Positions 9,033-40,031 of a DNA stretch of 40,187 nucleotides are shown here, in pieces; position 1 is the stretch's first letter, and every line of letters starts with the position of its first letter. The DNA lies in NCBI GenBank assembly GCA_003584875.1, contig QVQD01000094.1, forward strand, positions 1 through 40,187. Reading direction: 5' to 3'. The notes beneath the pieces are model-generated. The model had not been told where the DNA came from and ran no database searches. It saw nothing but the letters and a program-made list of their open reading frames with translations. This stretch comes from Methylococcales bacterium. GTDB taxonomy: Bacteria; Pseudomonadota; Gammaproteobacteria; Methylococcales; Methylomonadaceae. The translations under genes were made by a program, and so were the position numbers.

Positions 9033-10604
9033 TTAACGAATCAAATCGTAGTTATAGTCGGTAGTACCCATACCTTTAGTTTCTTTATCCAATTGCTCTA
9101 GGATGGCATTTACTAAGGTAGTCAGCATATAAATAGCGCCTTCATAACCTAATGTTGTCATTCTATGCAAATGATGTCTGTCAAAGATAGGGAAACCAAT
9201 ACGGATCAATGGCACTTCAAACTCTTCACCTTTATAGAAAGTATCACGTTGAATAAACTTGCCATAAGAATTACCGATCATAAAATCAGGTTTGTTAGTG
9301 AATACTAAAGAACGGAAATGCCATAAGTCTTTACCCGTATGTACCACTGAATTTTGGCCATAAGGTGAATCTTTAAGCATTTTTTCCATCGCTTTAGTCC
9401 AGCGCTTACTAGCATGATTACATAAGACATCAGCGGGTTCCGCACCCATTTCTAATAAGAACTTAGTCATACCCATGACAAAATCAGCATCACCATACAA
9501 GGAAAACTTTTTACCATGCATCCAGGTATGTGAGTCGGTCATCATGTCAACTAAACGACCACGCTCAAGTTCTAAAGAAGCAGGTATTGGTTTACCAGTT
9601 AATTCAGAGATTTTCATCAAGAATTCATCAGTCCATTCCAAACCCATTGGAATATTGATCGCTGTAGCAGGTTGATGCCAGATAGATTGCACAAACTTTT
9701 TAGTTTTTTCTAACTGCCAAGGTTGTAACAACAACGTATCAATAGCATTTGGTGAATCTTTTAATTCAGCTTGCGTAGTACCACCGGCATACATACGGAA
9801 AGTACCATCCGCTGGAGTATCTAACACCTCTGAAGGATCACTCATCAGTGTGTAATCCACACCCATTTCTTTCATCATGCGGTGCATGACTCGGTAATTA
9901 CCCAGATACGTTTCAAAGCCAGGCACTAAGTTAATTTTACCGTTAGAACCTACTTTTTTGTCGCCCATATGGTTTAAGGTAAAGTACTTAATCATGCCTT
10001 CAAACATGTTATCCCAACCCGTAGTATGGCTACCCACAAAACTAGGCGTGTGTGCAAAAGGAGTAGGATAATCTTGCTCTACATGACCCGCTTTTTTAGC
10101 ATTGTTAATGAAGGCGTTTAAGTCGTCACCAATAACTTCAGCCATACAAGTGGTTGAAACGGCAATGATGTCTGGTTGATATAAGGCTTTTGCATTCTCT
10201 AAACCAGCCATCATATTCTTTTGGCCACCAAATACCGCCGCATCTTCAGTCATTGAGTCAGAAACACAGGCAATGGGTTCTTTAAAATGACGATTAAAGT
10301 AAGTACGGAAATAAGCTACACAACCTTGCGAACCATGTACATATGGCATGGTTTTTTCAAATCCCAAAGCACACAATACAGCGCCTAAGGGTTGACAAGC
10401 TTTAGCGGGGTTAACCGTTAACGCTTCACGATTAAAATTGAGTTCTTGATATTCTTTGGTAGTAGTCCATTGAAAAACATCATCAATCTTTTCTTGCGGG
10501 TGACGCTCTTCATAAGCCTCACGTTTATTGGCTAAGCTTTCCTTATATTCGTCATTACGAAATAAAGGGTAACTAGGTTGAATATTATCTACTTCTTGAC
10601 TCAT
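9033..10604 (-). CDS. nifK: Nitrogenase molybdenum-iron protein beta chain NifK
   Basis: NifK is the beta subunit of dinitrogenase and shares the P-cluster with NifD. At 523 aa it has the same length as Azotobacter NifK, and its P-cluster ligands keep that numbering: C70 (NPAKACQPLG), C95 (GSQGCVAYF), C153 (STTCMAEVIGDD) and S188. The N-terminal extension typical of Mo-type NifK is present. It is preceded by a 90-nt spacer after nifD containing a hairpin repeat and followed by REP-like hairpins. No truncation or odd residue is seen. Confidence 0.98.
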   Translation of the reverse strand: MSQEVDNIQPSYPLFRNDEYKESLANKREAYEERHPQEKIDDVFQWTTTKEYQELNFNREALTVNPAKACQPLGAVLCALGFEKTMPYVHGSQGCVAYFRTYFNRHFKEPIACVSDSMTEDAAVFGGQKNMMAGLENAKALYQPDIIAVSTTCMAEVIGDDLNAFINNAKKAGHVEQDYPTPFAHTPSFVGSHTTGWDNMFEGMIKYFTLNHMGDKKVGSNGKINLVPGFETYLGNYRVMHRMMKEMGVDYTLMSDPSEVLDTPADGTFRMYAGGTTQAELKDSPNAIDTLLLQPWQLEKTKKFVQSIWHQPATAINIPMGLEWTDEFLMKISELTGKPIPASLELERGRLVDMMTDSHTWMHGKKFSLYGDADFVMGMTKFLLEMGAEPADVLCNHASKRWTKAMEKMLKDSPYGQNSVVHTGKDLWHFRSLVFTNKPDFMIGNSYGKFIQRDTFYKGEEFEVPLIRIGFPIFDRHHLHRMTTLGYEGAIYMLTTLVNAILEQLDKETKGMGTTDYNYDLIR

Positions 10605-28382: not shown

Positions 28383-28440
28383 AGAATGCGAAGAATTAAT
28401 TCATATTTTTTATAGAATGAGCTGAATGAAAGTAAAAGCT

Positions 28441-28490
28441 GTAGGCCAGAATAAGGCTTTGCTAGCTTAAGCGAGCAAAGCGTTTCCGAC
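28441..28490. repeat. MITE-family half copy upstream of nifL
   Basis: GTAGGCCAGAATAAG is followed by the near-palindrome 28456-28481 (GCTTTGCT-AGCTTAAGCG-AGCAAAGC, one mismatched pair). Same family as 1301-1421 and 39915-40031. Confidence 0.7.
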
Positions 28491-28543
28491 AGTCGCACAG
28501 CTCCTGAACCATGCAGGATGCACCCATGCAGCGAAAAAACACC

Positions 28544-28570
28544 GTAAGGGCGTATGCAATACGCCCTTAC
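28544..28570. repeat. GGGCGTAT hairpin repeat, copy 2
   Basis: Perfect 12-bp arms (28544-28555, 28559-28570; GTAAGGGCGTAT and complement) with a 3-nt loop, the best-preserved copy of the family at 23-41 and 37464-37482. It lies between the nifL and rnfA control regions. Confidence 0.8.
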
Positions 28571-28668
28571 GATCATCACTACTAGGTTATCGTTCTTTCG
28601 AAGAAACGATAATAAGAACCGCGCTGCAAAACACTTTGTCCTTAACCTAAGTTCTGATAATAAAGCAT

Positions 28669-28857: not shown

Positions 28858-29442
28858 GTGAGCGAATATCTTTTACTTTTATTAGGCACTGCTCTGGTTA
28901 ACAACGTGGTTCTGGTTAAGTTTCTAGGTTTATGTCCTTTTATGGGCGTCTCGAAAAAACTAGACTCTGCTTTAAGCATGGGCTTAGCGACTACTTTTGT
29001 GCTCACTCTGGCTGCAATGACTAGCTGGATGCTAGAGCATTTTATTTTGGCGCCCTTCAATATCCAGTTTTTACGCATCGTGTGCTTTATTTTAGTCATT
29101 GCTGCAGTTGTGCAATTTACCGAAATGGTTGTGCATAAAACGAGTCCCGTTTTGTATCAAATACTCGGTATTTTTTTACCCCTAATTACCACAAATTGTG
29201 CAGTATTGGGTGTGGCTCTATTAAATGTGCAAGAACATTATGGCTTTATGCAAAGTATTATTTTTGGATTCGGATCGGCCTTAGGTTTTACACTGGTAAT
29301 GGTGCTTTTTGCTGGATTGAGAGAGCGCTTAGCTTTAATGGCTGTACCAGAGCTATTTGCAGGAACGCCCATTGCATTTATCACTGCCGGCATTTTGTCG
29401 TTGGCGTTTATGGGATTTGCCGGACTTTACAGCGCACACTAA
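28858..29442 (+). CDS. rnfA: Rnf electron transport complex subunit RnfA
   Basis: A 194-aa inner-membrane subunit of the ion-translocating ferredoxin:NAD oxidoreductase, with about six hydrophobic helices. It starts with GTG and reads [20 protein letters not shown], then [18 protein letters not shown] and [14 protein letters not shown], the two Cys-containing half-helices that hold a membrane [2Fe-2S] cluster with RnfE. It is the first gene of rnfABCDGEH. In diazotrophs Rnf uses the ion gradient to reduce ferredoxin for nitrogenase. rnfB follows after 12 nt. Confidence 0.97.
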
Positions 29443-29454
29443 TAGGACTAAGGC

Positions 29455-30009
29455 ATGTATGTGTTATCCGCCATTTTTAGCTTAACTTTATTAGGACTAT
29501 TCCTAGGCTTGTTATTGGGCATTGCAGCTAGATATTTGAAAGTTGAAAGCAGTCCGATAGTTGATGAATTAGAAGCTTTACTACCTGGCTCACAATGTGG
29601 TCAATGTGGTTATCCTGGATGTAGACCCGCAGCTGAAGCCTTAGCTGAAGGACTAGTTCCTGCAACAATGTGCCCACCTGGCGGCAGTGCCTTAGCAGAA
29701 CAAATAGCTACTTTACTAGGTATTGATTTGGATTTAAGCGAAGTAAAAGAACCCGATTTACTGGTTGCCAGAGTCAGCGAAGCAACATGCACTGGCTGTA
29801 CGCGCTGTTTTAAGGTTTGTCCTACCGATGCCATAGTGGGTGCACCCAAACAAATTCATGCAGTCGTTGCTGATGCCTGTATAGCGTGCAAAAAATGTGT
29901 CGAAGTTTGTCCAACTGAATGTCTACAAATGCACCCAGTTGAGATTACTTTACGTAACTGGCGATGGAATAAACCCATATTAACTGAAGTAGGTAACATC
30001 TCATGTTAG
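29455..30009 (+). CDS. rnfB: Rnf complex Fe-S subunit RnfB
   Basis: A 184-aa subunit with one N-terminal membrane helix (about residues 3-24). A [4Fe-4S] domain with C48, C51, C56 and C73 (CGQCGYPGC, MCPPGG) follows, then two ferredoxin motifs CTGCTRCFKVCP and CIACKKCVEVCP. It is the expected entry or exit point for ferredoxin electrons. It overlaps rnfC by 7 nt. Confidence 0.97.
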   Translation: MYVLSAIFSLTLLGLFLGLLLGIAARYLKVESSPIVDELEALLPGSQCGQCGYPGCRPAAEALAEGLVPATMCPPGGSALAEQIATLLGIDLDLSEVKEPDLLVARVSEATCTGCTRCFKVCPTDAIVGAPKQIHAVVADACIACKKCVEVCPTECLQMHPVEITLRNWRWNKPILTEVGNISC

Positions 30010-31490
30010 GTTTTTTCACTCAATCAGCTATTCGTGGTGGTATTCATGCCGAACAACATAAAATCGAAACCTGCGCTGCTCCAATAGTCAGAAACTTTCC
30101 ATTGCCTAAAAAGTTATATATTCCCCTGCAACAGCATGTTGGCAAACCCGCCGAACCCATCATTAAAGTCGGTGAAAATGTATTAAAAGGCCAATTATTG
30201 GCTTATAGCCAAGGCATGGTTTCAGCGCCTGTTCACGCCCCTAGCTCTGGCATTATTTTAGATGTAAACGATTACCCTGCCCCGCATCCATCAGCCTTAC
30301 CTATCCGAATGATCGTACTAGAAACGGATAATAAGGATGAGTGGATAACAGCAGCTCAAATTGAAGACCCTTTTCTATTAACACCTGAAGACATTATTTT
30401 ACGCGTTGGCGCTGCAGGCATCGTAGGATTAGGCGGAGCCACTTTTCCAACTGCGGTTAAGCTCAACATGGGGCGCGAAAATCAAATTGATACACTCATC
30501 ATCAACGGCGCTGAATGCGAACCGTATTTAAGCTGCGATGATCGACTCATGCAAGAACATGCCGCCATGATTATTGATGGTGTGCGCTTGATGCTGCATG
30601 GCATGAATACCGAAAATGCTGTGATAGCCATTGAAGACAATAAACTGCTTGCATTCCATGCGATGCAAAGTGCAGCAACGCCTTTTTCTTCAATCAAGGT
30701 TATACAAATTCCCACTCGCTACCCAATGGGCTGGGATAGACAATTAATCCGTTATGTAACTGGAAAAGAAGTCCCAGTCGGTAGTAGATCATCTGAAATT
30801 GGAGTCACTATCCATAACGTCGGCACCGCTTACTCTGTGCACAATGCATTAAGATTTGGGCATCCTTTATTAAGTCGAGTTATTACAGTTGCAGGTGGAG
30901 CTGTTAAACGCCCCATGAATGTAGAAGTTCCCATTGGCACCTTAATATCGGAACTATTCGAATTTTGTGAGGTAAGTGTGAATGACATCGCACGACTTGT
31001 TATGGGCGGGCCCATGATGGGTGATTCTTTACCCCATACCAGTGTACCTACCGTTAAAGCAACAAGTGGCCTGCTTGCTTTAACTCAAAATGAACTTAAA
31101 GATGGCGATGAACAACCTTGTATCCGATGCGCCAGTTGTATCAGTGTTTGTCCAGCAGGACTTAGACCCTTAGATATGGCCAATAACATCCGCATTAATC
31201 AACTGGATGCTGCCGTGGATTTAGGTTTAAAAGATTGTATCAGTTGTGGTTGCTGCTCTTATATCTGCCCTTCTAATATTCCACTCGTACAATACTTCAA
31301 ATATGCGTCCGGTGAAGTCATTGCAAGACAGCAAGCTCAACACAAATCAGAACAAACCAAACGTTTAATCGAATCTCGCAATGAGCGCATGGAGCGTATT
31401 GCCCAACAACAGCGTGAAGAAGAACAAGCACGTTTAGCTGCAAAAGCAGAACGAGAAAGACTTAAAGCAGAGCAAGAGGCTTTACTATGA
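30003..31490 (+). CDS. rnfC: Rnf complex NADH-binding subunit RnfC
   Basis: A 495-aa peripheral subunit. The N-terminal barrel-sandwich region (about 30-110) precedes the FMN/NADH site GAAGIVGLGGATFPTAVKL (about 139-157). Two [4Fe-4S] motifs, CIRCASCISVCPAG and CISCGCCSYICPSN, lie near residues 375-425. The tail (about 445-495) is a charged Arg/Glu/Gln helix, shorter than the long Ala/Lys-rich extension of E. coli RsxC. It overlaps rnfB by 7 nt and rnfD by 4 nt. Confidence 0.97.
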   Translation: MLGFFTQSAIRGGIHAEQHKIETCAAPIVRNFPLPKKLYIPLQQHVGKPAEPIIKVGENVLKGQLLAYSQGMVSAPVHAPSSGIILDVNDYPAPHPSALPIRMIVLETDNKDEWITAAQIEDPFLLTPEDIILRVGAAGIVGLGGATFPTAVKLNMGRENQIDTLIINGAECEPYLSCDDRLMQEHAAMIIDGVRLMLHGMNTENAVIAIEDNKLLAFHAMQSAATPFSSIKVIQIPTRYPMGWDRQLIRYVTGKEVPVGSRSSEIGVTIHNVGTAYSVHNALRFGHPLLSRVITVAGGAVKRPMNVEVPIGTLISELFEFCEVSVNDIARLVMGGPMMGDSLPHTSVPTVKATSGLLALTQNELKDGDEQPCIRCASCISVCPAGLRPLDMANNIRINQLDAAVDLGLKDCISCGCCSYICPSNIPLVQYFKYASGEVIARQQAQHKSEQTKRLIESRNERMERIAQQQREEEQARLAAKAERERLKAEQEALL

Positions 31491-32557
31491 TCAAGCGTCT
31501 AAAACCACGTAGTGGTGCACATGTAGGTAGCAATACCACTATCAGCCATATCATGTGGCAAGTTATGTTAGCCCTGATGCCTGCGACCGCTTTTGGTTTT
31601 TGGTGTTTTGGATGGCCCGCTTTAAATCTATTTATCATTACCGTATGTTCAGCAATGATTTTTGAAGCCTTTTGTTTGCGATTAGCTGGCAAAATAGCAA
31701 TACCCATCCTTATGGATGGTTCTGCTGCGCTCACAGGTTGGTTACTAGCAATGACTCTGCCCCCTTGGGCACCTTGGTGGATTGGAGTTATAGGCTCAGG
31801 ACTCGCCATCATTCTAGGCAAACATGTTTATGGAGGCTTAGGGCAAAATTTATTTAACCCAGCGATGTTAGCTAGGGTGGCACTTCTCATATCTTTCCCT
31901 ATAGAAATGACCACTTGGGCGAATGTCTCACCGCTGTTTTTTTCTAATTCTCCAGGTATTATCGAAAGCTGGCATATTACTTTTTCGGGCTTAGACAATA
32001 TTGATGCTCATACCGGAGCTACCACTTTAGGCTTTATTAAAACAGAATTCTCACAGAACAAAGTATTGAGCAACATCCTAGAAGACATCTCTGGATTTGA
32101 AAATTTTATCGGCTGGCAACGCGGAAGCCTAGGTGAAACCTCGACACTATTAATTGGCTTGGGAGGTATTTGGTTAATCAGGCAAAATATCATTCATTGG
32201 CAAATTTCAGCCTCTCTATTAGTAACGGCCCTAGTACTAGCCACTATCTTTCATAGCATTGATAGCCAGCACTATATAAGTCCTTTTTTACATTTAAATT
32301 CGGGAGGTCTAATGTTAGTCGCCTTTTTCATTGCAACTGACTATGTAACCTCGCCAAATACGCCCACAGGACAATTAATATTCGGTGCATGCTGCGGCTT
32401 GCTCATATTCGTCATTCGTACTTGGGGTGCTTATCCAGAAGGAGCTGGTTTTGCTGTGCTGCTGATGAACTCTGCTACACCATTGATTGATTATTACATA
32501 CGCCCACGTATCTATGGACGTGATCGTAATGGCAAGCCCCTTGAAATATCTAAATAA
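31487..32557 (+). CDS. rnfD: Rnf complex membrane flavoprotein RnfD
   Basis: A 356-aa membrane protein with about eight to ten helices. The covalent FMN site is visible as TGAT, with T179 as the likely attachment residue (DAHTGATTLG). It is paralogous to NqrB. It overlaps rnfC by 4 nt and is 18 nt before rnfG. Confidence 0.96.
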   Translation: MIKRLKPRSGAHVGSNTTISHIMWQVMLALMPATAFGFWCFGWPALNLFIITVCSAMIFEAFCLRLAGKIAIPILMDGSAALTGWLLAMTLPPWAPWWIGVIGSGLAIILGKHVYGGLGQNLFNPAMLARVALLISFPIEMTTWANVSPLFFSNSPGIIESWHITFSGLDNIDAHTGATTLGFIKTEFSQNKVLSNILEDISGFENFIGWQRGSLGETSTLLIGLGGIWLIRQNIIHWQISASLLVTALVLATIFHSIDSQHYISPFLHLNSGGLMLVAFFIATDYVTSPNTPTGQLIFGACCGLLIFVIRTWGAYPEGAGFAVLLMNSATPLIDYYIRPRIYGRDRNGKPLEISK

Positions 32558-32575
32558 TAAACCAGAGAAAACGCC

Positions 32576-33286
32576 ATGAAAGTTGACCCTGAAAGCATTG
32601 AACATTGGAAAAGGAAAATCGCTGCTTATCGTGTGTTTCTAAAGAATTGGTTAGAACCCTCAAATCTAGCAGGACTAAGACCCAAACTGAAATTTCAAAC
32701 AGGGATATTAGCAGGCTTTGCCTTAATGGCCAGCGTATTACTGGGTGTTACTAACTGCAGTACCGAAGGCACTATTCAAAAGAGACTCGATGAAGATCTA
32801 AAAAAGTCACTAGAAGAAGTGGTACCTGCTGCGCTTTATGATAATAACATTCTACAAGACACACTGAGCATTCCCTCCGCTGACTATAATATAGGCGCAA
32901 AAGAAACCATGGTTTATATCGCCAAAAAGTTAGGGAAAGTTACTGCTGTAAGCTTTAAATTCATCGCACCCGATGGTTATTCTGGAGCCATCAGTATGAT
33001 TATGGGCTTGGACCGAGAGGGCAATATACTTGGAGTTCGAATACTCAGTCACAAAGAAACACCCGGCCTAGGCGACAAAATAGAAGTAACAAAATCTAAC
33101 TGGATATTGAGCTTTGTGGGACGGTCGCTAGACAATCTAAGCAAGCAACAATGGGCGGTTAAAAAAGATGGCGGTGACTTCGATCAATTTGCTGGCGCAA
33201 CCATCACGCCGCGTAAGTCGGTACAGGCAATATATCGTGGCTTACAGCTATTTAAAGACCATCAGACACAATTAATCAATCCATGA
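32576..33286 (+). CDS. rnfG: Rnf complex flavoprotein RnfG
   Basis: A 236-aa subunit with one membrane helix (about residues 44-62, GILAGFALMASVLLGVTN) and a periplasmic FMN-binding domain. The covalent FMN site is AGATITPRKSV, with T209 as the attachment Thr; HKETPGLGDKIE is another family hallmark. The roughly 40-residue N-terminal extension before the helix (MKVDPESIEHWKRKIAAYR) is longer than in E. coli RsxG. Confidence 0.96.
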   Translation: MKVDPESIEHWKRKIAAYRVFLKNWLEPSNLAGLRPKLKFQTGILAGFALMASVLLGVTNCSTEGTIQKRLDEDLKKSLEEVVPAALYDNNILQDTLSIPSADYNIGAKETMVYIAKKLGKVTAVSFKFIAPDGYSGAISMIMGLDREGNILGVRILSHKETPGLGDKIEVTKSNWILSFVGRSLDNLSKQQWAVKKDGGDFDQFAGATITPRKSVQAIYRGLQLFKDHQTQLINP

Positions 33287-33296
33287 GGGCGACACC

Positions 33297-33995
33297 ATGT
33301 TTCTATCAAAACCCTATCGTAAAATTGCTAGTGACGGCCTCTGGAATAACAATATTGTTTTTGGACAAAATCTTGCGCTATGCCCCTTATTAGCAGTGAC
33401 GGGAACAGCGACAAACGGTTTAGGAATGGGGCTTGCAACGCTAGTGGTCATTATCTGTTCCAACGGACTCATTTCAGCAGCACGACATTTGATACCTAGC
33501 GAAATTCGTATCCCTATTTTTGTATTATTAATTGCCGCCTTAGTGACCTTGGTCGATATTTTAATGAATGCTTGGGCACACGAACTCTATAAAGTTTTAG
33601 GCTTATTCATCGCCTTAATAGTCACCAATTGTGCATTATTAGGACGCGCCGAAGCTTTTGCTTCCAGACAACCAGTAAGATATGCCTTGTGGGATGGACT
33701 CATGATGGGACTGGGATTTACACTAGTGCTAGTCACATTAGGGGCAGCTAGAGAAATTAGCGCCAATGGTACTCTTTTTGCCAATGCCTCATTATTACTG
33801 GGTCACTCGTTTAAATTTCTTGAAATCACTGTAATTCATGACTACAAAGGTTTCTTATTAATGGCTCTACCCCCAGGCGGCTTTATTATGCTGGCTTTTA
33901 TAATAGTTAGTAAACGCTTGATAGACCGAAAACTAGCACAAAGAAAAGCAATTATTAAAATAGTAACGCCCGTTATTGCAGAGGAATCAGTATGA
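33297..33995 (+). CDS. rnfE: Rnf complex membrane subunit RnfE
   Basis: A 232-aa membrane protein homologous to RnfA and NqrD, about six helices. It has NLALCPLLAVTGTATNGLGMG near residue 26 and IVTNCALLGRAEAFAS, each with the conserved Cys that pairs with RnfA. The C-terminal tail is basic. It overlaps rnfH by 4 nt. Confidence 0.96.
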   Translation: MFLSKPYRKIASDGLWNNNIVFGQNLALCPLLAVTGTATNGLGMGLATLVVIICSNGLISAARHLIPSEIRIPIFVLLIAALVTLVDILMNAWAHELYKVLGLFIALIVTNCALLGRAEAFASRQPVRYALWDGLMMGLGFTLVLVTLGAAREISANGTLFANASLLLGHSFKFLEITVIHDYKGFLLMALPPGGFIMLAFIIVSKRLIDRKLAQRKAIIKIVTPVIAEESV

Positions 33996-34252
33996 ACGTC
34001 GGAGTTTGTTATGCAGAAGTCGATAGGCAACTATGGATGCGTCTTGAAGTACCCGATGACAGCAGCATAGAACAAGCCATTAAACTTTCAGGCCTATTAA
34101 AGCTCTACCCTGAAATAAACCTAGATATCCAAAAAGTGGGCATCTTCGGCAAAATATTTCCATTGGATACCACGGTAAAAGATGGAGATAGAGTTGAAAT
34201 TTATCGCCAAATAACCGTTGATCCACAGACTGTGCAAAGACGGAGACGGTAA
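33992..34252 (+). CDS. rnfH: RnfH family ubiquitin-like protein
   Basis: An 86-aa beta-grasp protein (MNVGVCYAEVDRQLWMRLEV, then VGIFGKIFPLDTTVKDGDRVEIY) of the RnfH family. It is the last gene of the rnf operon, as in Azotobacter rnf1, and overlaps rnfE by 4 nt. Its role in Rnf assembly is presumed. The C-terminus ends in an Arg-rich tail (QRRRR). Confidence 0.94.
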   Translation: MNVGVCYAEVDRQLWMRLEVPDDSSIEQAIKLSGLLKLYPEINLDIQKVGIFGKIFPLDTTVKDGDRVEIYRQITVDPQTVQRRRR

Positions 34253-34343
34253 TAATACATTCAAGCGATGCATAGACTAACTCGACGTATGTCTACTTAT
34301 CGCAAAGCGTCATTCCTACAGTTATGGCTATATAGAGTGCATT

Positions 34344-34388
34344 GAAAGTGGTTTTTGCCGCGATTGTCTTAGCTAAAACCACTTCCAC
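34344..34388. repeat. Hairpin repeat after rnfH
   Basis: GAAAGTGGTTTTTGC and GCTAAAACCACTTCC form imperfect arms; a diverged copy of the perfect hairpin at 5238-5286. It could end the rnf transcript. Confidence 0.65.
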
Positions 34389-34420
34389 AAAGTATGAAAA
34401 CCTTAAATTAAACCCCCATA

Positions 34421-34448
34421 TTGTAAATAGAATAGATTTATCTATACT
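34421..34448 (+). promoter_or_regulatory. Candidate sigma-70 promoter of the signalling genes
   Basis: TTGTAA (34421-34426), 16-nt spacer, TATACT (34443-34448). The predicted start near 34455 gives a leader of about 150 nt before the ATG at 34604. Confidence 0.4.
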
Positions 34449-34603
34449 CCTCATCAAATTAAACTCACATCAACGTATTACACTATACGGATATTGAGCT
34501 GTATTACAGTTCTTCTTATTGCTGTGATTATTCATACTTACGTTTGCACTAAAAATGAACTATATACCCTCATCCATCGAATTTTTAAAATCGAGTACTC
34601 GGT

Positions 34604-37357
34604 ATGTTTGAATACATTCAACAATACCTGAGTAATAGTACGGAATGGATGCCTGAAGGTTACTCTATCGAATGGACCCCTAGCCTTTTTTGGACTCATG
34701 TCTTTACCGATCTTTTAACAGCTGCAGCTTATTATACAATTCCTCTTTCACTGCTCTATATAGCATGGCATCGAAAAGACCTACCCTTTCGTAAAATTTA
34801 CTTAATGCTGGGCGCTTTTATAATAGCCTGTGGTACTTCGCATTTAATTTCAATTGTCCTGCTATGGAAACCCATCTACTGGCTGGATGCACTCATACAC
34901 ACAATCACCGCTTTGCTTTCACTAGGCACCGCATTTTTTGTCATTCGTCTAATACCGTTATTAAAACAATCGTCTTTACCTACCATGGAAAAAACGATTT
35001 ATGAAGCCCTACTCATGAAAGGTGACATTGATCTTTCATCAATGAAAGCCAGATTTAATAACACAACACAACTCGCTCCTGTTGGTATTGTTAACGTTTC
35101 AACAAATAGTGACATACTGGAAGTCAACCCCAAGTTCTGTAATTTCATCGGCTATAGTCATGATGAAATACTCAACATGAATCTTGAAGATATCAGTTGT
35201 GAAGATTGTTACTCTCAATACGCAAGCAAAATTAGTCAGTGTTTGTCGGGTGAGATTTCTGAATTTGAAGAGAAATGTCAATATCGACATAAAAAGGGTC
35301 ATGTCATCTGGGGGGCTTTACACGTAAAATTAATCCGACATAAAGATAGACGCCTGGATTATTTTATTTTAATTGTAGAAGACATTTCTATTCAAAAAAA
35401 CCTACAAGACAATTTAACCATACAATCTATGGCCGTCAATCAAAGCCCTAGCCCAGTTATGATTACTAATCTTAATAGAGAAATTAAATACGTCAACCCT
35501 GCATTTTTAAGACACACAGGTTATTCATTTAGTGAGGTGATCGGACAAAATTCGCAGATGTTCTTTTCAGAAAAAACTCCTCCAGAAATCTATAGCGAAA
35601 TGTGGTCTGCATTATTGGAGTTCAAGCCATGGAAAGGTGAGTTGATCAATAAAAGTAAGCAGGGTAAAGAAACGGTAGATTTAACTGAAGTTATTCCTAT
35701 TGCGACTGCAGATGGAATTATTGACCATTATTTAGTTTTAAAAGAAGATATAACTGCCCGTAAAGAAACTGAACTTGCATTGATTACAGCCACTAAAGCA
35801 GCAGAATCACTTTTTGAAAGCAAGTCCTTATTCATGGCTAATATGTCGCATGAAATACGTACACCTATCAGTGTCATTATGGGCTTTACTGAACTTGCTT
35901 TAATAAAAGACATGCCCGATAACATTCGAGACTATCTTTGCAAAATCAAAACTGCCTCTATGGGCTTGCGCAATATACTGAATGACATTTTAGACTTCTC
36001 TAAATTAGAAGCTGACAAAATCACCATTGTTCCAGAATTATTTGATCTGTCATTACTTAAGGACGAACTGTATAGCTTTTTTAAAAGCAGTGCCGATAAG
36101 AAAGGCCTTCTATTTACCACAGATATTGCCGCTGATACTCCACTGCAATTGATTGGTGATGAACAAAGAATAAAACAAATACTCATAAACCTAATCAGCA
36201 ACGCAATCAAGTTTACTGAATTCGGATATGTAAAACTTAATATTTCAGCACTGAGTAAAGATGCCAAGCAGGCAAAACTTTTGTTTTCTGTTCAAGATTC
36301 AGGTATCGGCATTACTGAAGAGGATCAGACTCATTTATTTCAAGTTTTCAACCAAATTGACAACTCTATCACTCGTCGTTACGGGGGTACAGGTTTAGGC
36401 TTATCGCTTAGTAAAAACCTCTTGCATCTAATGGGGGGAGAATTCAAAGTCAGTAGTGAATTGGGTGAAGGCAGTTTTTTTAGCTTTGAGATAGTGATGG
36501 ATTTACCAACCGAAACAATTGCATACCCTACAAAACAAGCAGAAAGCTTAGCTGATATAAACAGCGACCCTGATTCAGAGCACACAAACATACGAATACT
36601 GGTAGTAGAAGATAATCTATTCAACCAGCAAATTATTGAAGAGATACTGGCCTTAGCGGGCTTTAGCGTGGAACTTGCAGATAATGGTAAAGTAGCATTA
36701 GACTTATTAGAGCAGCATGAGTTTGATGCGATAATCATGGATGCACACATGCCGATCATGGATGGTTTTGAGGCGACTACACGCATACGTAGTCAAACAC
36801 GTTTTGACAAAATGCCGATTATCGCCCTAACTGCTGGTGTATCCCAAGATGAGAGAATACGATGCTTAGAAGTTGGCATGGATGATTTTCTAAATAAGCC
36901 CATCAATGGACGACTACTTATTTCCACACTAAAACAACACCTTAATTCAGAAATACAAAATAAGCCTCAGCTAAATAAACCAGAACCTGCGACAGTAGCG
37001 ACTACTGAAATAAGCAATAATGAAAATAGGTTGAATGTAGATATACTGAAAAAAGAAATTGGCGATGATCCAGCCAAAGTAGCTAAGTTCTTAAACTTTT
37101 TCCAAAAATCATCGCAAGAAATAAGCGTTGAAATAATAGCAGCCTCCCGTGCGCAGCAATTAGATGCAGTATTCGCAGCGGCACACAAACTTAAATCAGC
37201 AGCCCGTACCGTAGGCGCTATTGATCTTGGGGATTTATGTAGTGCTATTGAAAATGCTGCAAAAGCAGGCAACCAAACTGCACTCAACACCCTGCTGCAA
37301 AGCTTTGAAGAAGAATGGAACGAGGTCAATAAACTATTGCAGGCTTGGACTAAATAA
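34604..37357 (+). CDS. ETR1-like membrane hybrid histidine kinase
   Basis: A 917-aa sensor. Residues about 28-120 form three membrane helices that align without gaps with the plant ethylene receptor ETR1 at a constant offset of 11: D36, Y43, I46, P47, I73, C76 and H80 correspond to ETR1 D25, Y32, I35, P36, I62, C65 and H69. C65 and H69 are the copper ligands for ethylene. Then come PAS 1 (about 150-265), PAS 2 (about 272-390) and a HisKA domain with H416 (MANMSHEIRTPISVIMG). An ATPase domain (NLISNAIKF, DSGIGI, GGTGLGLSLSKN), a receiver with D713 and a C-terminal Hpt domain with H861 (AAAHKLKSAARTVGA) complete it. A complete internal phosphorelay is present. The ligand is unproven: ethylene, or another copper-binding small molecule. 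Confidence 0.9.
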   Translation: MFEYIQQYLSNSTEWMPEGYSIEWTPSLFWTHVFTDLLTAAAYYTIPLSLLYIAWHRKDLPFRKIYLMLGAFIIACGTSHLISIVLLWKPIYWLDALIHTITALLSLGTAFFVIRLIPLLKQSSLPTMEKTIYEALLMKGDIDLSSMKARFNNTTQLAPVGIVNVSTNSDILEVNPKFCNFIGYSHDEILNMNLEDISCEDCYSQYASKISQCLSGEISEFEEKCQYRHKKGHVIWGALHVKLIRHKDRRLDYFILIVEDISIQKNLQDNLTIQSMAVNQSPSPVMITNLNREIKYVNPAFLRHTGYSFSEVIGQNSQMFFSEKTPPEIYSEMWSALLEFKPWKGELINKSKQGKETVDLTEVIPIATADGIIDHYLVLKEDITARKETELALITATKAAESLFESKSLFMANMSHEIRTPISVIMGFTELALIKDMPDNIRDYLCKIKTASMGLRNILNDILDFSKLEADKITIVPELFDLSLLKDELYSFFKSSADKKGLLFTTDIAADTPLQLIGDEQRIKQILINLISNAIKFTEFGYVKLNISALSKDAKQAKLLFSVQDSGIGITEEDQTHLFQVFNQIDNSITRRYGGTGLGLSLSKNLLHLMGGEFKVSSELGEGSFFSFEIVMDLPTETIAYPTKQAESLADINSDPDSEHTNIRILVVEDNLFNQQIIEEILALAGFSVELADNGKVALDLLEQHEFDAIIMDAHMPIMDGFEATTRIRSQTRFDKMPIIALTAGVSQDERIRCLEVGMDDFLNKPINGRLLISTLKQHLNSEIQNKPQLNKPEPATVATTEISNNENRLNVDILKKEIGDDPAKVAKFLNFFQKSSQEISVEIIAASRAQQLDAVFAAAHKLKSAARTVGAIDLGDLCSAIENAAKAGNQTALNTLLQSFEEEWNEVNKLLQAWTK

Positions 37358-37740
37358 AACAAGTTGGCTCTAAGTAATTAGGAGACTTCGATTTATTCCT
37401 AAAGAGTATCGGCAACTTATCGTTTCAACGCATAATTGACAACATTGTGGTAATTGCCAGTAGGGGCGTATTGCATACGCCCTTATAAATCAGACCATGT
37501 AATATTGAACTTAGATAAATGGGCGTATGCACTACAATGTTTACATCGTAACGAGCCTACCTAAGGGACTCTAATAAAAATTGTAACTAGCTATGCCAAA
37601 AAGAGAAAATCAGATCGATCGATAGCAATAAAATACTCATGTATAACGACGAACGTTATACAACTAAGCAAGAATAGCGATACAAAAGTGTCGCATTAGA
37701 TGATGACTTTAAATAAACCCCAATATTAATAATAATTTAA
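37358..37740. other. Gene-free gap between the two signalling genes
   Basis: 383 nt holding the GGGCGTAT palindrome at 37464-37482 and a half copy at 37521-37530. The rest is AT-rich with no ORF, sigma-54 element or convincing terminator seen. It is too long for tight co-transcription, so the next gene may have its own promoter. Confidence 0.6.
37464..37482. repeat. GGGCGTAT hairpin repeat, copy 3
   Basis: Arms GGGCGTAT (37464-37471) and ATACGCCC (37475-37482), loop TGC; the loop is the complement of the GCA loop in copies 1 and 2, so this copy is inverted relative to them. It lies about 105 nt after the hybrid-kinase stop. Confidence 0.75.
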
Positions 37741-38874
37741 ATGACAATCTCGATACTAATAGCCACAGATAATAGTGAACAAGCTCAGCTTATAGTCGCT
37801 CAACTTGCCAAAGACTATAGCGATATAGTTATCTCTATTAAATCCCAATCGCTAATTAACGATTTTGACAAACATCAACCTGATGTTTTAATTCTCGCCT
37901 TTGCTAATTTGGCTAAAGCACAAGAGTATTACGAAGCTTTATATGAAAGCAGCAATCATATTACCAACTGCACCCATAGAACCGTGCTTTTGTGCCACGA
38001 AGATGAGATAGAACAAGCTCATGAACTGTTTAGGCAAGAGGTTTATGACGAATATATTCCCTTTATGCCAACCCCATATGATAGCCATCAGTTGCCTAGG
38101 GCAATCCATCGGGCATCATTAAGCCTTAAAGCGGGCGCCATTAACGACACCAACTCTGAATTGATTAAACGGGTCCGTAGACTTAGCAATCTGGAGGCAA
38201 AGTTTGAATCTGCACTAAAACTTGCCCACCAGCAATTAGATATCGTCAATCAAGCCTCAGATCAAATAAAAATAGATCAATTAAACGTCTTAACTAATTT
38301 TCTTCAGAGCCTTAACGAGCTGACCAACAATAGTTCAGAGCAAAGTTTACAACCACTGATAGATGAATTAGAAGAAAGCTTAATTAATCAGAAGCTCAAC
38401 ACACTCACCCTACCCTTATTAAAAATAAAAAATTGGTTTAATGATTTGCGACCCTTAATTAACATATTGGTTAACGAGGTTACTTTATTAAAAGTTGTCG
38501 CACAAAAAACACCGCCCACTGTATTGATTGTAGATGACGACAAGTTTGCACAAATGATGCTTAACGATATAGTCGCCACAGAAAATTATTCTGTACTGTT
38601 TGCTGATAGCGGTATAGATGCACTCAAACTATTGCGTAAGCACAAACCTGACATTATTTTAATGGATATGAATATGCCAGCATTAGGCGGCATAGAAACC
38701 ATTAGTCGCATTAAAGATTCACCGAGGTTTTCGTCTATACCCATCATAATGATAACGGGCAGTAATGCGAAAAAAGATGTCATCGAAAGCTTGAAAGCTG
38801 GAGCAGCAGATTTTATTGTTAAACCAGTAAGTCATGGGATTTTGCTTGATAAAATCGAACTATTACTTCATTAA
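37741..38874 (+). CDS. Response regulator with pseudo-receiver and C-terminal receiver
   Basis: A 377-aa cytoplasmic protein. The N-terminus (about 1-130) looks like a receiver fold but has lost the phosphorylated Asp (PDVLILAFANL where LxxD is expected), so it is a pseudo-receiver. A helical, coiled-coil-like linker (about 140-250, rich in Leu, Asn, Glu) follows. The C-terminal receiver (about 258-377) is intact: VLIVDDDKFA, phosphoacceptor D309 (ILMDMNMPALGG), T/S and K residues (MITGS, VKP). There is no DNA-binding or enzymatic output domain. It lies downstream of the hybrid kinase and is a likely phosphorelay partner; that link is inference. Confidence 0.82.
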   Translation: MTISILIATDNSEQAQLIVAQLAKDYSDIVISIKSQSLINDFDKHQPDVLILAFANLAKAQEYYEALYESSNHITNCTHRTVLLCHEDEIEQAHELFRQEVYDEYIPFMPTPYDSHQLPRAIHRASLSLKAGAINDTNSELIKRVRRLSNLEAKFESALKLAHQQLDIVNQASDQIKIDQLNVLTNFLQSLNELTNNSSEQSLQPLIDELEESLINQKLNTLTLPLLKIKNWFNDLRPLINILVNEVTLLKVVAQKTPPTVLIVDDDKFAQMMLNDIVATENYSVLFADSGIDALKLLRKHKPDIILMDMNMPALGGIETISRIKDSPRFSSIPIIMITGSNAKKDVIESLKAGAADFIVKPVSHGILLDKIELLLH

Positions 38875-38959: not shown

Positions 38960-39871
38960 ATGACTAACATTGACATTAATTTAAATCTTTATTTAACTGC
39001 GTTTGAAAAAATGGCTGATGCAGTATTGCTGTTAAATGCAAAAGATGAGCGATTCATAAACTGCAATGAGGCTGCACTTAAGCTATTTGCTTATCCTAAT
39101 AAAACTGCTTTTCTTAATCAAAAACCAGCTGATATTTCACCAACACATCAAACAGATGGCAAAAGCTCTAGTCAAAAAACTACAGAAAGCTACGCATTAG
39201 CCAAACAAACCGGTTTTCATCGTTTTGATTGGCAATATTTAAAACATGATGGCTCAACATTTTCAGCTGAAGTTACTCTAACGCCCATTATTGTAGAGGA
39301 AGAAGAAATATTCCATATAACGCTACGAGAACTTAGCGAACATATTCTTCGTGAGCTAACTGAGCGCATACAAATACCAGAAAGTATCATTAAGAACATA
39401 ATGGCTTATCTTGAGTCAGAGAAAACTAATGTCGCTTCTATGTCTATTGATCAAAAAATCCAAGAACTCAATCAACACACAGGTCCAACTGAGCTTAAAG
39501 GATTAAATATTTTAATCGTAGAAGATGATGCCTTTATGCAAGAAGTCATCACCGAATTGCTAGAACGCTTCGGAGCGACTTTTATCGTTGCGAATAATGG
39601 TGCAGAAGCCTTAGAGGCCTTAGAAAAAGATCAGTTTGATGCTGTATTAATGGATTTACACATGCCACTTATGGATGGATTTGTCGCTACATTGCAAATC
39701 CGTAAAATTGAAAAGTTTGCCAATTTACCTATTATAGCGGTCACCGCAAGCGTTAGCGAAGAAGCTAAGCAACGCTGCTTGAGAACAGGCATGAATGACT
39801 TTATCAGCAAACCCATAAATGTCAGCAAACTCCTTTCTAAAATTACAAGTTGGACTAAGGTATCTGAATAA
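38960..39871 (+). CDS. PAS domain plus receiver protein
   Basis: A 303-aa cytoplasmic protein with a PAS domain (about 10-130: EKMADAVLLLNAKDERFINC, then a YLKHDGSTFSAEVTLTPI strand). A helical linker (about 130-175) and an intact receiver (about 183-303) follow: LNILIVEDDAFMQ, D232 in VLMDLHMPLMDGF, AVTAS and SKPI. The receiver closely resembles that of the hybrid kinase upstream (LVVEDN, MDAHMPIMDGFEATT-IR). There is no kinase or output domain. It follows the previous gene by 85 nt, so both are probably co-transcribed and take phosphate from the same Hpt. Confidence 0.85.
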   Translation: MTNIDINLNLYLTAFEKMADAVLLLNAKDERFINCNEAALKLFAYPNKTAFLNQKPADISPTHQTDGKSSSQKTTESYALAKQTGFHRFDWQYLKHDGSTFSAEVTLTPIIVEEEEIFHITLRELSEHILRELTERIQIPESIIKNIMAYLESEKTNVASMSIDQKIQELNQHTGPTELKGLNILIVEDDAFMQEVITELLERFGATFIVANNGAEALEALEKDQFDAVLMDLHMPLMDGFVATLQIRKIEKFANLPIIAVTASVSEEAKQRCLRTGMNDFISKPINVSKLLSKITSWTKVSE

Positions 39872-39914: not shown

Positions 39915-40031
39915 TGTAGGCCGGAATAAGACCACTTAAGCCTAGCGCGGGTGGCGTTTCCGGCCATACGTGCTTGCCTATACCGGAAACGCTTTCCTCG
40001 CTTACGCTCGTAAAGCCTTCACCGGCCTACA
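39915..40031. repeat. 117-bp MITE-family element with 10-bp inverted ends
   Basis: Ends TGTAGGCCGG (39915-39924) and CCGGCCTACA (40022-40031) are perfect inverted repeats. Inside, GCGTTTCCGGCC and GGAAACGCTTTCCTCGC are partial palindromes matching the other family copies. It is the best-bounded copy with the 1301-1421 element. Confidence 0.8.

Follow-up and report, generated by a model that had tools for sequence, protein, structure and literature searches.

The locus raises the question of whether a hybrid histidine kinase gene beside nitrogenase and rnf genes encodes an ethylene receptor, and whether its place in the genome says anything about its function. The window, meaning the whole stretch of 40,187 nucleotides that was analysed, is the entire contig C7 of a Methylococcales genome (G000; 3.03 Mb in 240 contigs). 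The nif and rnf neighbourhood described in an earlier, sequence-only reading was confirmed, with nifH, nifB, nifA, nifL, nifD, nifK, nifE and nifN each scoring over the NCBIfam curated cut-off and rnfC, rnfA, rnfG and rnfH over the cut-offs of their models; the Mo-nitrogenase locus beside the kinase is genuine. The label of methanotroph fits as well, given an AMO/pMMO family gene present in the genome as two pieces on two contigs. Short repeats were observed at positions 1-70, 1300-1355, 28440-28612 and 39983-40031 of the window, among others, and also near the kinase gene of a related genome (G029) and, in part, on contig C1; these repeats, some of them at the window ends, may explain assembly breaks or rearrangement.

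The kinase gene and its domains are listed in Table 1. Pfam searches upheld the description of a hybrid kinase with PAS-PAS-HisKA-receiver-Hpt order in a single open reading frame, headed by an ETR1_N domain (PF25487; 105.8 bits, cut-off 27). The HisKA, HATPase_c, REC and Hpt motifs are intact and all three phosphosites are present. Hydropathy maxima near residues 46, 78 and 105-110 of the N-terminus are consistent with three membrane helices; a search of solved structures by the kinase sequence gave no match at E up to 10. Comparison with the G029 ortholog, in which the counts of changes are small, gave a dN/dS of 0.21 for the sensor, 0.07 for PAS-PAS, 0.04 for the kinase region, 0.09 for the receiver and 0.19 for the Hpt tail, a pattern that indicates purifying selection on the gene with less constraint on the sensor and Hpt tail.

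Table 1. Features of the kinase gene and its surroundings, in window positions.
Feature	Positions	Strand	Basis or remark
rnf cluster ending in rnfH; neighbour only	28858..34252	+	Family-model matches
Inverted repeat between rnfH and kinase	34343..34387	.	Homology to G029 copy begins just past repeat (34394 or 34408)
Hybrid histidine kinase, 917 aa	34604..37357	+	ORF call; ETR1_N-PAS-PAS-HisKA-HATPase-REC-Hpt; dN/dS 0.12 overall vs G029 ortholog
Ethylene-binding-type membrane domain (Pfam ETR1_N, aa 28-120)	34685..34963	+	Pfam E 1.4e-30
D36 (= ETR1 D25, AzoEtr1 D35)	34709..34711	+	Alignment
C76 (= ETR1 C65, AzoEtr1 C75), copper ligand by homology	34829..34831	+	Alignment
H80 (= ETR1 H69, AzoEtr1 H79), copper ligand by homology	34841..34843	+	Alignment
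H99, replacing helix-3 lysine (ETR1 K91, AzoEtr1 K98)	34898..34900	+	Alignment; clade of four, support 99/90
PAS domain 1 (aa 172-255)	35117..35368	+	Pfam
PAS domain 2 (aa 282-385)	35447..35758	+	Pfam
HisKA, phosphoacceptor H416	35822..36013	+	Pfam and motif inspection
HATPase_c, N and G boxes	36155..36493	+	Pfam and motif inspection
Receiver (REC), D713	36596..36931	+	Pfam and motif inspection
Hpt, H861	37091..37327	+	Pfam and motif inspection
Response regulator RR1, 377 aa, C-terminal REC; candidate partner, not conserved with kinase	37741..38874	+	Pfam
PAS-REC protein RR2; candidate partner	38960..39871	+	Pfam

The seven ETR1 residues that the earlier reading had reported as conserved are all present in an alignment of 80 distinct sensor domains, taken from retrieved loci that are mostly of the source organism's family, one of them an 84-residue fragment (L127). 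In the kinase they are D36, Y43, I46, P47, I73, C76 and H80, matching D25, C65 and H69 of plant ETR1 and four further positions that the earlier reading names as Y32, I35, P36 and I62. All seven are kept in 61 of the aligned domains, and at least one is missing in the other 19. The plant positions were mapped not by direct alignment but through the numbering of AzoEtr1 from Azospirillum brasilense, which pairs D25 with D35, C65 with C75, H69 with H79 and K91 with K98 (PMC11819568). Our alignment reproduces these published AzoEtr1 numbers, the kinase stands at an offset of +1 from AzoEtr1 (L213) at all eight positions checked, and C76 and H80 fall on AzoEtr1 C75 and H79. The gap-free match to ETR1 at an offset of 11 residues, claimed earlier, holds at D25, C65 and H69 but gives way to an offset of 8 at K91, so the stretch between helices 2 and 3 is three residues longer in ETR1. 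Alanine scanning of ETR1 singled out these seven sites as needed for ethylene binding, and all are conserved in AzoEtr1, which binds ethylene; binding is lost when either C65 or D25 is mutated in AtETR1, or the corresponding Cys in SynEtr1 (PMC11819568). Because all seven sites so defined are kept, ethylene binding by the kinase is likely retained, and the alignment supports an ethylene-receptor-type copper site in this bacterial hybrid kinase.

The earlier designation of a full ETR1-type copper site was accurate for the seven binding residues but not for three other conserved positions. The helix-3 lysine is replaced by His99; across the 80 domains this position is Lys in 71, His in four, Arg in three, and Asp and Gly in one each. 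In a sensor tree built from few columns, the four His99-type sensors, from the kinase and its relatives in G029, G026 and G080, group together on one side of a branch (support 99/90), surrounded by lysine-bearing relatives. In addition, the PHGxC motif of the aligned bacterial members (His in 75 of 80 aligned domains, Cys in 74 of 79) reads PEGYS in the kinase and PQGYS in G029, with His changed to Glu or Gln and Cys to Ser. Departure at all three positions together was seen only in the kinase, G029 and L123. Natural Asp-to-Asn variants at the D25 position were observed in L110 (G014) and L123 (G005), the latter also without further site residues including the Cys. A published model of the ETR1 sensor proposes signal transfer via helix 3, with K91 not named in the text available to us (PMC6586836). 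We regard it as unlikely that the His99 receptors represent a derived branch with an Asp-His pair in place of the bridge between the helix-1 Asp and helix-3 Lys, the proposed output carrier, or with His99 as a third protein ligand of copper, in a methanotroph family that widely uses ETR1-type receptors to watch a toxic co-substrate; if true, this would be a receptor with changed output, affinity or preferred gas.

Sensors of this type are unexpectedly abundant in the source organism's family, and this is the clearest new signal of the analysis. The ETR1_N-type domain was found in 138 of 237 family genomes (135 over the cut-off, with up to six per genome) and in 160 of 311 genomes across the order, including 22 of 74 outside the family. 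A sample of the class yielded 16 of 369 genomes, 12 of them over the cut-off, of which two belong to the source family and one to another family of the order; 14 control genomes yielded none. The Fisher test of family against class (135/237 vs 10/367) assumes just two family genomes in the class sample, and the groups were sampled differently with kinship uncorrected; the gap is large despite the sampling. No match was present among 50,697 phage records, and an IMG/VR scan with a four-sequence alignment gave no relative. The sensor matched 19 plasmid records, seven of them from Azospirillum, and the whole protein at least 5000. A whole-protein contig search was led by the kinase domains, and none of the 80 loci retained from it carried the sensor domain.

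The same genome encodes a second sensor (L117:193-3027, G000:C203), in which ETR1_N precedes three PAS domains, GGDEF and EAL, making a direct link from ethylene to c-di-GMP possible. Elsewhere in the genus, paralogous receptor genes lie near a Met/His-rich, secreted-looking protein of 104-107 aa (L119, L122, L125, L127, L130, L132 and L138), with 13-15 Met and 5-6 His in five of the small proteins; the ORF start in L122 is uncertain, and the L127 copy was found by tblastn only. These loci also carry a sigma-54 response regulator, 89-100% alike over 477 residues. Of the receptor gene, an 84-aa remnant is all that is left in L127 (G010, about 9570-9850), and L125 has 357 aa. L135 has the sigma-54 regulator (87%) without the small protein. 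Two of the small proteins were scanned and had no Pfam match at E 0.1, and one had a sub-cut-off NCBIfam match to BhsA (0.0028). The small protein could supply copper to the receptor.

On this evidence we put the probability at about 60% that the kinase serves a gammaproteobacterial methanotroph as an ETR1_N-family ethylene receptor, encoded by a separate gene rather than a part of the nif/rnf cluster. In domain and key residues it is an ordinary family member that carries an unusual His in helix 3. With D36 positioning them, C76 and H80 would hold Cu(I) in the membrane, where ethylene would bind the copper. By analogy with AtETR1, SynEtr1 and AzoEtr1, ethylene would then lower autophosphorylation at H416 via helix 3 and the PAS linker, and so change a relay predicted to run from H416 to D713, H861 and a response regulator. 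An inverse-agonist model, in which receptor loss gives constitutive ethylene responses, is said to be valid for plants, Synechocystis and Azospirillum (PMC11819568). The receptor would most likely serve as a warning of ethylene, which methane monooxygenase co-oxidises to toxic epoxyethane; alternatively, it may signal ethylene-rich wet soil and roots. Growth of Methylohalobius crimeensis is completely inhibited above 0.5% ethylene; the study describes induction of an epoxyethane oxidation system, names a MEDS-domain regulator and nowhere uses the word "receptor" (PMC11507031). Given this inhibition of a methanotroph by ethylene, the role of a warning sensor suits the kinase better than that of a nitrogenase regulator. 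Ethylene also lowers c-di-GMP in Azospirillum (PMC11819568) and, with the L117 sensor joined to GGDEF-EAL, c-di-GMP is another plausible ethylene output in the source genome. Against the reading of the kinase as an ethylene receptor stand the His at the K91 position, the PHGxC changes, the looser dN/dS of the sensor and the lack of a conserved output partner.

In order to determine whether the position beside rnf is conserved, residues 1-401 were searched against the 237 family genomes, yielding two full-length orthologs, in G029 (95%) and G026 (55%); the next relative, in G080, was 46% alike over residues 1-270. Neither G029 (98% complete) nor G026 (90% complete) contains nifH over the cut-off, and neither has an rnfH closely related to the one in the window, the best matches being at 42-43% identity. 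The G029 kinase gene neighbours genes for a 752-aa RNase R-like protein, an rlmB-like gene and cytochrome c maturation genes, and in G000 a different contig carries the counterparts of the first of these, next to a P-type ATPase-like gene (all named by sequence reading). DNA homology between the G000 and G029 copies ends at window position 37489, a block comprising the kinase gene with flanks of about 200 bp before it and 130 bp after it, and no rnf; 268 bp beyond the kinase, the G029 contig stops. With an E limit of 1e-20, RnfH matched 130 places; counting the copy in the window, 124 of these qualify as close relatives, with 61-100% identity and scores above 110 bits. Downstream DNA, the only side examined, was searched for 77 of the 123 others (all 17 from the rest of the genus and 60 selected from the remainder); with rnfH counted in, 63 of the retrieved pieces were 4 kb or longer and 70 were 2 kb or longer. 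None of the 77 contained the sensor domain. Among 35 genomes of the genus, 15 have the domain and 20 have nifH (17 over the cut-off plus fragments in G003, G006 and G017), with both in nine, the domain only in six, nifH only in 11 and neither in nine (Fisher p = 1.0). RR1 was considered as a conserved partner of the kinase and rejected, since G029 offers nothing closer than a 46% relative, equalled in similarity by a second copy within the source genome itself (G000:C16, 46%); relatives occur in three other genomes of the 35. Pfam at E 0.001 assigned RR1 no DNA-binding domain and matched nothing within its first 250 residues. With the G029 copy elsewhere, no domain in the rnfH flanks, no co-occurrence beyond chance and no RR1 ortholog in G029, the position beside rnf seems peculiar to the source genome, and the nitrogenase link drawn in the sequence-only reading was rejected as a functional linkage.

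These results bear directly on the proposal that the kinase regulates nitrogenase or Rnf in response to ethylene, as its place downstream of rnfH on the same strand suggests. In Azospirillum, ethylene lowers nifH, glnB and amtB transcripts, an effect tied to carbon/nitrogen balance, and Azoetr1 is expressed more strongly when a nitrogen source is missing (PMC11819568). The nifH effect is the one real argument for a nitrogen link, but nothing in the part of that paper available to us rests on gene position, and the nifH-less closest orthologs, the different location in G029, the empty rnfH flanks and the genus-wide counts together make such a role highly improbable. The upstream region of the kinase (34253-34603) also has no NifA-type and no sigma-54-type match; this point is weak, since the region upstream of rnfA, with two NifA-type matches, likewise has no sigma-54-type match. 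Window-wide scans found 15 NifA-type sites against 11.6 expected and five sigma-54 sites against 1.9 expected; these scans and one for sigma-70 sites and terminators gave nothing firm on the kinase gene.

Two other proposals concern the sensor itself. The copper site may be kept while another cue is sensed, such as copper status, CO, acetylene or another alkene, with the helix-3 His altering copper coordination. Copper is central to pMMO bacteria, the Lys-to-His change is confined to one clade, and the Met/His-rich protein beside paralogous receptors is a possible copper handler; the retention of all seven ethylene-binding residues, and the lack of any copper gene among the neighbours searched with family models, make this proposal unlikely. 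That the membrane domain is a degenerating anchor, with the PAS domains as the true sensors, would account for the three lost positions, for a sensor evolving faster than the PAS and kinase regions and for the Asn at the I62 position of the G026 ortholog (L108). With the seven binding residues remaining in both the kinase and G029, and the sensor dN/dS still well below 1, we consider a mere anchor very unlikely.

Bacterial ethylene receptors tested so far, in the literature covered, come from cyanobacteria and Azospirillum, and no report of ethylene receptors in methanotrophs was found in the open-licence literature searched. A methanotroph family with the domain in more than half of its genomes gives ethylene sensing a concrete reason, namely the conversion of ethylene by methane monooxygenase to toxic epoxyethane. 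Cultured methanotrophs of a comparable kind exist, so the idea of an ethylene warning is directly testable, and the natural Lys-to-His variant offers a means of testing the proposed output bridge.

Compared with known systems, plant ETR1 shares the copper-site residues, mapped through AzoEtr1, but has a GAF domain (PMC12643061) where the kinase has PAS-PAS, and it has no Hpt; it also keeps Lys91 in helix 3 and, from the numbering in PMC11819568, differs in length between helices 2 and 3. SynEtr1 of Synechocystis, compared by description, is likewise a bacterial ethylene receptor signalling via His phosphorylation, but is cyanobacterial and also a light receptor (PMC11819568). The hybrid kinases of G010 (L104/L126) and G002 (L112) have sensors 66% and 62% identical to that of the kinase, and L126 shares PAS, HisKA and REC together with an Hpt match below the cut-off; they differ in the Lys at the helix-3 position, in open frames of about 1355 aa and, for L126, in more PAS domains. 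AzoEtr1, also bacterial, shares the ETR1_N-type domain, all seven binding residues, and PAS with histidine kinase domains (PMC11819568), with no net gap between D36 and H99. It differs in keeping Lys98 and PHGxC, in 34.6% identity over the sensor and in its length of 525 aa against 917, with no REC or Hpt named in the text available to us (PMC11819568). The likeliest function of the kinase, judged from its sequence, is that of an ethylene receptor like AzoEtr1.
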